Shown one piece after another: positions 21,565 to 23,252 of a stretch of 64,000 bases of DNA. Position 1 is the stretch's first letter. Each line of letters begins with the position of its first letter. The notes beneath the pieces are model-generated. The model was not told the DNA's origin and ran no database searches. It was given only the letters and a program-made list of their open reading frames with translations. The stretch comes from Okeania sp. SIO1I7 (GTDB taxonomy: Bacteria > Cyanobacteriota > Cyanobacteriia > Cyanobacteriales > Microcoleaceae), in the NCBI GenBank assembly GCA_010672585.1, contig JAAHGF010000002.1, forward strand, positions 248,001 to 312,000, in the 5' to 3' direction. The position numbers and the translations under genes are program-made.

Positions 21565-21804
21565 ATGCAAAGTTATACAGCGATTATTTTTTCTTTTTTA
21601 TTATTACTAGGTAATGCTCCTAGTAGCAAAGCTTTAATCATTGAAAATGAAGTAGCGTTCTCTTCTACATTTTATAGAGGATCTGCTAGAACTAAAACTC
21701 ATAAAGATCATGTCAGAAAGAGAAGCATACGAGCTTTTGTCAATACAATTTGTACTTCTGGAACTGATAGTGAAAAATGTCCTCATCGTGGTAGTGGACG
21801 CTAA
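21565..21804 (+). CDS. patX: PatX-type secreted peptide precursor ending in HRGSGR
   Basis: The 79-residue precursor has the hallmarks of PatX, the widespread RGSGR-containing regulator linked to HetR in filamentous cyanobacteria. It starts with a hydrophobic signal sequence (residues 5-16) and a plausible cleavage site after SSKA (residue 23). A basic middle follows. The C-terminus is CPHRGSGR, so the pentapeptide RGSGR is residues 75-79, exactly at the end. In heterocyst formers, RGSGR peptides derived from PatS or PatX bind HetR and prevent neighbouring cells from differentiating. The gene is on the same strand as hetR, 548 bp upstream of its start. Two terminator-like hairpins lie between them, so they are probably transcribed separately. 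Confidence 0.9.
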   Translation: MQSYTAIIFSFLLLLGNAPSSKALIIENEVAFSSTFYRGSARTKTHKDHVRKRSIRAFVNTICTSGTDSEKCPHRGSGR

Positions 21805-21916
21805 AGCCGATCAAAATGTCTCTTGCTGTATTAAGTTTTAATTCTTAATTAGAGATTTGTTAAAGTTACTTGAGGCTTTGGTTTGATAATATTAACTATC
21901 TGAAAAATTGTAAACA

Positions 21917-21950
21917 ATTCTCTTGTTAATTAACGAGAGAATTTTATTAT
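21917..21950 (+). terminator. Terminator-like hairpin after patX
   Basis: Stem attctct-t-gtta / taac-g-agagaat (one T-G wobble), arms 21917-21928 and 21931-21942, followed by tttatta. It lies about 110 bp after the patX stop. Confidence 0.65.
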
Positions 21951-22050
21951 TCAATATCATAGTAAGCTGTTGGGGATTTAAACTATATAACTTTAGACCC
22001 TTAACTTGTAACAGAGAACATAAAATCTAAATGCGTTATTAACTTTAATA

Positions 22051-22095
22051 ACCATTGATACTACTGCTATAAGTGGGATCAATGGTACTTTTTTA
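22051..22095 (+). terminator. Strong terminator-like hairpin upstream of hetR
   Basis: Left arm 22051-22065 pairs with 22072-22086: nine perfect pairs (accattgat / atcaatggt), one mismatch, then five more pairs including a wobble. A run of six T follows at 22089-22094. It lies 258 bp before the hetR start codon, so it ends an upstream transcript (patX or an unannotated small RNA) or acts in a hetR leader. The remaining gap to hetR has no ORF and must include the hetR promoter(s). Confidence 0.7.
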
Positions 22096-22352
22096 TGTTA
22101 TATTGATATAAATATGTATGTCAGTCAAAAGTACACAGGGTGTAAAAATCTACTAAGATAACAATCTATTCGCACGCTTAATTTGCGTGCCTGCTCTTAC
22201 GCCAAATACAAAAAGTCTCAAAGACATATACTTGCTTGGTATAAGAGTTATATTTGGCTGGCTTTCTATGATTGAAGTATCATCATGGTCAGCATATTTT
22301 TAATAGAGGATAATACTATGCCTCTTAAGTTTTTGTTATTTTGGGGATTGTA

Positions 22353-23252
22353 ATGAAAAATGATACCGATCTGATTAATAGCCTTAGCCCCAGTGCTATG
22401 GATCAGATTATGTTATATTTAGCGTTTAGTGCCATGAGGACGAGCGGGCATCGTCATGGAGCTTTCTTGGATGCAGCTGCAACTGCTGCTAAATGTGCGA
22501 TTTATATGACCTATGTGGAACAAGGTGAAAATCTTCGCATGACAGGACATTTGCATCACATAGAGCCTAAACGGGTTAAAGTGATCGTGCAAGAAGTAGA
22601 AAAAGCACTCAATGAAGGCAAACTACTAAAAATGTTGGGTTCTCAAAAACCTCGCTATTTGATTCAGTTTCCCTATGTGTGGCTCGAACAATATCCTTGG
22701 ACTCCTGGGCAATCAAGGGTTCCAGGTAACAATCTTACTACTGAGGAAAAGCGATATACTGAAAGAAAACTTCCTCCAAATATGCCTGATGCCAAATTGA
22801 TTAATTCTTTTCAGTTTATGGAATTAATTGAGTTTTTACACAGGCGGTCTCAAGAAGATTTACCACTAGAACGCCGAATGCCTCTGAGTGAAGCTTTAGC
22901 AGAACATATTAAACGTCGCTTGATTTATTCTGGTACGGTAACTAAGATAGATTCTCCTTGGGGAATGCCTTTTTATGCTCTCACTCGTTCTTCTTATTCC
23001 CCAGAAGATGAGGAGGAACGCACTTATATAATGGTCGAAGAGACAGCTCGTTATTTCCGTCTGATGAGGGATTGGGCAGAACAAAACAACAAGGTAATGC
23101 GTATTTTGGAGGAGTTTGATATTTCTCCCGATCGCTATGAACAAGCTAAAGAAGAGTTAGACGAAATCATTAGACATTGGGCTGATCGCTATCATCAACC
23201 AGACGGAAAACAAATGATAGTACAGATGGTTTTTGGCCCCAAGGATGATTAG
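22353..23252 (+). CDS. hetR: HetR, master regulator of filament patterning/differentiation
   Basis: DNA-binding dimer that controls heterocyst or diazocyte development and is the receptor of RGSGR peptides. From the ATG at 22353 it has 299 residues, the same length as Nostoc HetR; an upstream TTG would add four residues and is less likely because ggggattgta precedes the ATG as a ribosome site. Residues known from Nostoc are kept: Cys48 in AAKCAI, Ser152 in LINSFQF, and the hood-domain acidic set Glu253, Glu254, Asp256 (LEEFD) implicated in peptide binding. The N-terminal block [20 protein letters not shown] is essentially invariant. In a non-heterocystous filament it may act in diazocyte formation or other filament patterning. 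Confidence 0.98.

Follow-up and report, generated by a model that had tools for sequence, protein, structure and literature searches.

A patX-hetR pair in Okeania sp. SIO1I7 and its relatives among filamentous cyanobacteria

The PatX-HetR module has been reported for filamentous cyanobacteria both with and without heterocysts (PMC12756182, citing Elhai and Khudyakov 2018), so that the bolder reading of the locus studied here, which had been the subject of a preliminary description, as a newly found peptide-receptor pair has been anticipated by published work. Nostoc PatX is described as exported and cut by PatP. Its activity reportedly needs export, and the hexapeptide HRGTGR binds Nostoc HetR with a K_D of 88 nM (PMC12756182). 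In the solved HetR-PatS6 structure, contacts are made by E253, E254, D256, D270, and D278, with R223 taking part, and these residues were tested by mutation (PMC4649674). A comparable gene arrangement has been described in Leptolyngbya sp. BL0902, a non-heterocystous filament in which patX lies immediately upstream of hetR behind a predicted DIF1 promoter and in which no patS was found (PMC11298460). The expression changes caused by deleting patX, hetR, or both in BL0902 were read as PatX being basically independent of HetR, and the same report speaks of a mystery as to what the two proteins do in non-heterocystous filaments (PMC11298460).

The Okeania locus shares the adjacency, the DIF1-like promoter, and the lack of a recognizable patS with BL0902. 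It differs in that BL0902 is described as having no nif cluster and a seemingly cotranscribed pair (PMC11298460), whereas the Okeania genome carries nifH and nifD and has a candidate terminator between the two genes. With PatX, PatS, HetN, and HetR of Nostoc/Anabaena PCC 7120 it has in common the RG(S/T)GR peptide, the hydrophobic or signal N-terminus of PatX, and the same HetR contacts (PMC12756182, PMC7761841, PMC4649674). Unlike that strain, Okeania has a single RGSGR-ending open reading frame (ORF) and no PatS or HetP match. A further difference concerns Nostoc sp. 106C, the only Nostoc measured here, in which patX and hetR occupy opposite strands of a single contig with 9.7 kb between them and HRGSGR is followed by a 14-residue tail; in Okeania patX adjoins hetR and the peptide is terminal.

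The Okeania locus and its promoter

The window, by which we mean the whole 64,000-nucleotide stretch analyzed, belongs to a genome of 9.48 Mb in 109 contigs that is 99.99% complete. Okeania is a marine filamentous cyanobacterium that is not known to form heterocysts. The window HetR is identical (100%) to that of Okeania sp. SIO2B3, is 94-97% identical to those of three further Okeania, and clusters with Okeania HetRs in a HetR tree.

The gene patX (21565..21804, + strand) encodes a precursor of 79 amino acids with a hydrophobic N-terminus, a signal stretch that was read by eye from the sequence, and the end CPHRGSGR. The last six residues, HRGSGR (21784..21801, +), are the predicted mature inhibitor and form the exact C-terminus of PatX, and the PatX alignment reveals a near-match to the motif, RGSAR, at residues 38-42 (21676..21690, +). 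After a gap of 548 bp, hetR follows on the same strand (22353..23252, +; ATG at 22353) and encodes 299 amino acids with Peptidase_S48 (PF03574) and HetR_C hood (PF18460) domains. This protein matches NCBIfam model NF009718 over residues 1-299 of 299 (598.9 bits; cut-off 489), aligns gap-free to two full-length solved HetR sequences, and contains S152, R223, E253, E254, D256, D270, and D278; the S48 domain and a hood domain with its peptide contacts, the hallmarks of the family, are thus both present. The preliminary description had given the 79-residue precursor with its signal sequence and HRGSGR end, the 299-residue HetR 548 bp downstream on the same strand, and the retention of Glu253, Glu254, Asp256, and Ser152, and on each of these points the ORF coordinates and the alignment agree with it.

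The small protein matches NF047413 (heterocyst_PatX) over its full length with 21.2 bits (E 3.6e-4), below the curated cut-off of 30. Since 12 further genomes from the Okeania-Trichodesmium clade all stay below this cut-off too, 5 of them having no match at E 0.1, the clade appears to be poorly covered by the model. We regard the cut-off as a property of the model rather than of the protein, and assign the ORF to PatX by its motif, its promoter, and its position; its product is small and pairs a hydrophobic N-terminus with an RG(S/T)GR motif, as is characteristic of PatX. Another model, NF047414, proved to describe an unrelated family. Throughout the genome, patX is the only ORF of at least 25 amino acids that ends in RG[ST]GR. 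A second RGSGR-ending gene was looked for among 7 pattern matches and rejected: in 2 of them RG[ST]GR is followed directly by a stop codon, one being patX and the other (L119) ending no ORF of at least 25 amino acids.

Upstream of the patX start codon, at a distance of 60 nt, lies the DIF1-like promoter element TCCTGA (21505..21510, +). Elhai and Khudyakov are said to have placed a DIF1 motif within 69 nt upstream of patX in 2018, a distance within which the window has this one-base variant. The motif itself, TCCGGA, is reported from the promoters of patS, patX, and hetR (PMC7377430). Among 50 loci of relatives with a readable start, 49 have TCC[T/G]GA at 30-110 nt before patX (46 TCCTGA, 3 TCCGGA; a later Met was taken as the start for L062 and L065); 100 mononucleotide shuffles averaged 1.3 such loci and never gave more than 5. 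The sole miss, L016, has only 43 nt available before the start.

An imperfect inverted repeat, GTATCAGAG...CTCTCACAC (21528..21553, +), separates the DIF1-like element from the start codon and recurs among many relatives. An RNA hairpin in this leader was considered and rejected. Of 49 leaders plus the window, 33 (32 relatives and the window) were aligned, and in this alignment the number of pairs changed on both sides was equalled or exceeded in 290 of 500 shuffles and the covariation score in 44 of 500; because covariation did not clearly exceed that of the shuffles, we do not claim an RNA structure. Downstream of patX, a 12-bp stem with a T-rich tail (21916..21943, +) forms a candidate terminator or attenuator. 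The 81-nt stretch around it has a folding z of -2.66, and the core hairpin is the same in three relatives (L002, L003, and L004) and not in L005. With a candidate terminator between patX and hetR, their cotranscription is doubtful.

We scanned all 35 window ORFs of at least 90 amino acids with mutual overlap below 30%, together with patX. All 35 were compared with NCBIfam (for part of them among matches with E ≤1e-20) and 31 of the 35 with Pfam, and no second heterocyst gene was found among them, as the preliminary description had stated for the window. A pentapeptide-repeat protein of 656 amino acids (6231-8198) weakly matches the HetL model, with 47.2 bits for a cut-off of 260; the genome has 107 matches to this model, none above the cut-off, and the Nostoc control likewise has none above it, so that this model is uninformative here. 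An adenylylsulfate kinase gene (20579-21106) lies upstream of patX in divergent orientation, and TnpB/OrfB fragments of IS605-type elements are present at 3181-3582, 30069-30470, and 54568-54951.

Conservation of the pair and of its peptide contacts

The search for HetR relatives found 326 stretches, and the best 80 were kept, which make up 79 distinct loci and are biased to near kin. Within this set, 52 of the 79 loci have an ORF upstream of hetR, in the same orientation, that carries RG(S/T)GR close to its end; in 51 of them it is within 3 kb, and the median gap is 658. The control regions gave one such ORF in 79 loci downstream, one upstream on the opposite strand, and none downstream on the opposite strand. 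The pairing is therefore not due to chance.

The 27 loci in which no upstream motif ORF was found include two with less than 700 bp of upstream sequence (L028 and L034), the Trichodesmium MAG_R02 locus (L013), where the peptide reads HRGSRR, and every one of the ten loci that the HetR tree places in its Nostocales clade (Fischerella, Nostoc, Tolypothrix, Calothrix, and kin). For Fischerella muscicola PCC 7414, the PatX match and hetR were located on contigs of 66 kb and 118 kb, respectively. One locus titled Richelia (L056) has the pair, but its HetR falls among Microcoleus in the tree. Of the 474 genomes in a published survey, 12.0% are reported to have hetR but no patX (PMC12756182), so by the criteria of that survey the pairing is not universal. 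Two Oscillatoriales MAGs have two tandem patX-like ORFs upstream of one hetR (L020:2795-3920 and L026:3345-4363); in L020 one of the two carries RGSGR and the other RGTGR. In a Fischerella PatX-like ORF (L133, around 1899, - strand), RGSGR is followed by 43 more residues that include GGSRR, which resembles a degenerate second motif.

All 12 loci of the Okeania-Trichodesmium-Hydrocoleum group have a patX-like ORF upstream, and in 11 of them RGSGR stands beside the matched hetR; the ORF of L006 has no ATG, and the contig of L012 ends inside the ORF. We aligned 10 clade PatX sequences (the window, L002-L005, and L007-L011), leaving out L013 with its HRGSRR peptide. RGSGR is invariant in all 10 and the preceding H is present in 9, while the internal RGSAR at residues 38-42 is found in the window, L002, L003, L004, L005, and L011 and is absent in L007-L010. 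For these sequences pN/pS is 0.69 overall. A value of 0.33 in the signal region points to purifying constraint there, and the middle region, at 0.81, appears close to neutral. The last eight codons give 0.76, a value that reflects how short this stretch is and how few synonymous and nonsynonymous changes it holds. The motif codons CGT GGT AGT GGA CGC are identical in 10 of 11 clade loci, and pS in the last eight codons is 0.098 compared with 0.41 in the middle. Constraint on the synonymous sites of the motif was considered on this ground and set aside, the stretch being too short for such a claim.

The residues that contact the peptide are for the most part conserved on the receptor side. In 81 HetR sequences (the 79 loci, the window, and the second copy of L013), R223, E253, D256, and D270 are invariant, D278 is present in 80, and position 254 is E in 60 and T in 21. 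The 21 loci with Thr at this position belong to Microcoleus, Tychonema, and kin, and their peptide is mostly ERGSGR rather than HRGSGR. The residue before RGSGR and HetR residue 254 are strongly associated, the combinations being H-E in 23 cases, E-T in 19, E-E in 2, R-T in 3, and other residues with E in 8. The two E-E loci, L016 (Kamptonema) and L037, may represent a step between HRGSGR/E254 and ERGSGR/T254. Coevolution of the two positions was considered, but the association does not by itself speak for it: the T rows form one tree clade, and many other HetR residues track the peptide residue equally well or better.

Possible roles of the pair

As far as sequence can tell, the window holds a real, functional-looking PatX-HetR module. 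We think it probable that the locus is the Okeania copy of the known module, in which PatX limits a HetR-driven program in neighboring cells. PatX would be expressed from the DIF1-like promoter and, if Nostoc work is a guide, exported and trimmed to the hexapeptide HRGSGR, which would enter cells, occupy the HetR hood domain, and release HetR from DNA; by the same analogy with inhibition in Nostoc, one cell could thereby limit the HetR-driven program in its neighbors. Antagonism of HetR by PatX in Okeania is on this analogy only likely, because the BL0902 deletions suggest that PatX acts independently of HetR. As for the HetR program itself, our preference is for one of a general filament type, such as necridia or nitrogen-status control.

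PatX and HetR might instead be neighbors with separate jobs, the peptide targeting something other than HetR, as proposed for Leptolyngbya BL0902. The transcriptomes of the BL0902 deletions speak for this reading, since in shared-gene groups 2 and 3 the double mutant is reported to resemble the patX mutant, contrary to the hetR mutant (PMC11298460); so does the hairpin between patX and hetR. It is at odds with the conservation of the peptide contacts (R223, E253, D256, and D270 in 81/81 HetR sequences, D278 in 80/81, E254 in 60/81) and with the observation that the only HetR without D278 adjoins a PatX with a changed peptide. On balance we consider separate jobs unlikely.

Models of the HetP family and of PatS gave no match in the window's genome (G000) at E 0.001. 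In the Nostoc control HetP scored 123.7 bits, and PatS, at 29.2 bits, narrowly missed its cut-off of 30. Accordingly, the pair in Okeania seems to function in the absence of the heterocyst program. The preliminary description had noted a PatX-HetR pair with intact contacts, possibly at work in a filament lacking classical heterocysts, and had suggested diazocytes, the clusters of nitrogen-fixing cells, or another patterning role. The pair, the conserved contacts, and the seeming independence of a heterocyst program stand; the diazocyte role has been weakened. In its favor, nifH is above the cut-off in 14 of the 26 genomes searched, including the window's genome and 10 of 12 clade genomes. For nifD the count is 10 of 13, with the gene split in two pieces in a further genome (G005). 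Against it, two Trichodesmium genomes, MAG_R03 (L008) and jk18x7bins.61 (L012), gave no nifH or nifD above the cut-off and keep patX beside hetR. The nitrogenase cluster is reported absent from MAG R03 (PMC9189399), presumably the same assembly as L008, and for L012 an incomplete assembly is a possible cause. If the two genomes truly are without nif, patterning of nitrogen-fixing cells cannot be the sole program of the clade, and the pair in the Okeania-Trichodesmium clade is probably not for nitrogen fixation alone. Outside the clade, patX is also found within 3 kb of hetR in five genomes with no nifH above the cut-off (L015, Arthrospira; L019; L020; L025; and L041, Microcoleus vaginatus), while two others (L018 and L022) have both nifH and the pair. 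We give little credence to a role of the pair specifically in diazocyte patterning.

It is hardly tenable that the small ORF arose as a reading frame by chance or is a relic in decay: the missing ATG in L006, the L013 copy without its middle, and the pN/pS of 0.81 in the middle region would fit such a view, but the ORF is present in 12/12 clade loci with a pN/pS of 0.33 in the signal region, a motif invariant in 10/10, and a conserved promoter element. The Okeania locus offers a clean example of the pair in a genome with nif genes, and relatives that keep the pair without detectable nif, together with the doubled and diverged cassette described below, provide simple openings for asking what the ancestral peptide signal governs.

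Position of the peptide and a doubled cassette

The position of the peptide within PatX differs among lineages. The precursors of Microcoleus and kin carry RGSGR internally, followed by a tail of 9-16 residues, the tail being absent in L045, L051, L053, and L068. In Okeania, Trichodesmium, and Arthrospira, RGSGR is the exact end of PatX and follows an extension. Lyngbya, Arthrospira, and the Okeania-Trichodesmium group fall in one clade of the HetR tree (95/82), in which the upstream-ORF test found no adjacent patX for Planktothrix and two others. In the lineage that comprises Lyngbya, Arthrospira, Trichodesmium, and Okeania, a formerly internal peptide thus seems to have come to stand at the exact C-terminus, and the simplest reading of the order is that a terminal copy was gained and the internal copy then lost. 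Terminal motifs also arose elsewhere, for example in L045, L051, L053, and L068, where the internal motif runs directly into a stop codon, and the internal/terminal label changes 8 times on the HetR tree. The PatX of Lyngbya aestuarii (L022:4321-4569) contains RGSGR twice, once internally and once as HRGSGR at the exact C-terminus, an architecture between those of the neighboring clades. The relocation may be a new finding; our literature search found no paper joining PatX with Trichodesmium (as whole words) or PatX with Lyngbya and RGSGR.

In Trichodesmium MAG_R02, the patX-hetR cassette occurs twice in tandem (L013:4026-9828). Copy A has a 91-aa PatX ending in HRGSRR and a HetR with N278, the sole one of the 81 sequences without D278; copy B combines a 31-aa PatX, missing its middle but ending in HRGSGR, with a HetR that has D278. 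The two HetR copies differ at 15 residues, and among 14 clade sequences eight changes are unique to A and seven to B, so that N278 is one of several. The changed peptide beside a receptor changed at D278 may mean that the pair is diverging or that both genes are in decay. A search of 61 family genomes for the doubled cassette yielded one, G085, with both copies; it looks to be the same genome as L013 and is thus no replication. A published report describes both hetR copies and gives evidence of evenly mapped reads for another T. thiebautii MAG; patX is absent from its main text (PMC9189399). The doubled cassette with a changed peptide may be new.

A more far-reaching possibility is that the Okeania-Trichodesmium cassette serves as a private channel for its peptide and that this channel is evolving. 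The peptide would have moved to the exact C-terminus, where one cut frees it. In MAG_R02 the cassette would then have doubled, with one copy altered in its peptide (HRGSRR) as well as its receptor (D278N) on the way to a second channel, distinct from the first, within one filament. We regard this as a long shot. By eye, a reverse-strand gene similar to adenylylsulfate kinase lies upstream of the doubled cassette in MAG_R02, and an apparent fragment of it sits between the two copies.
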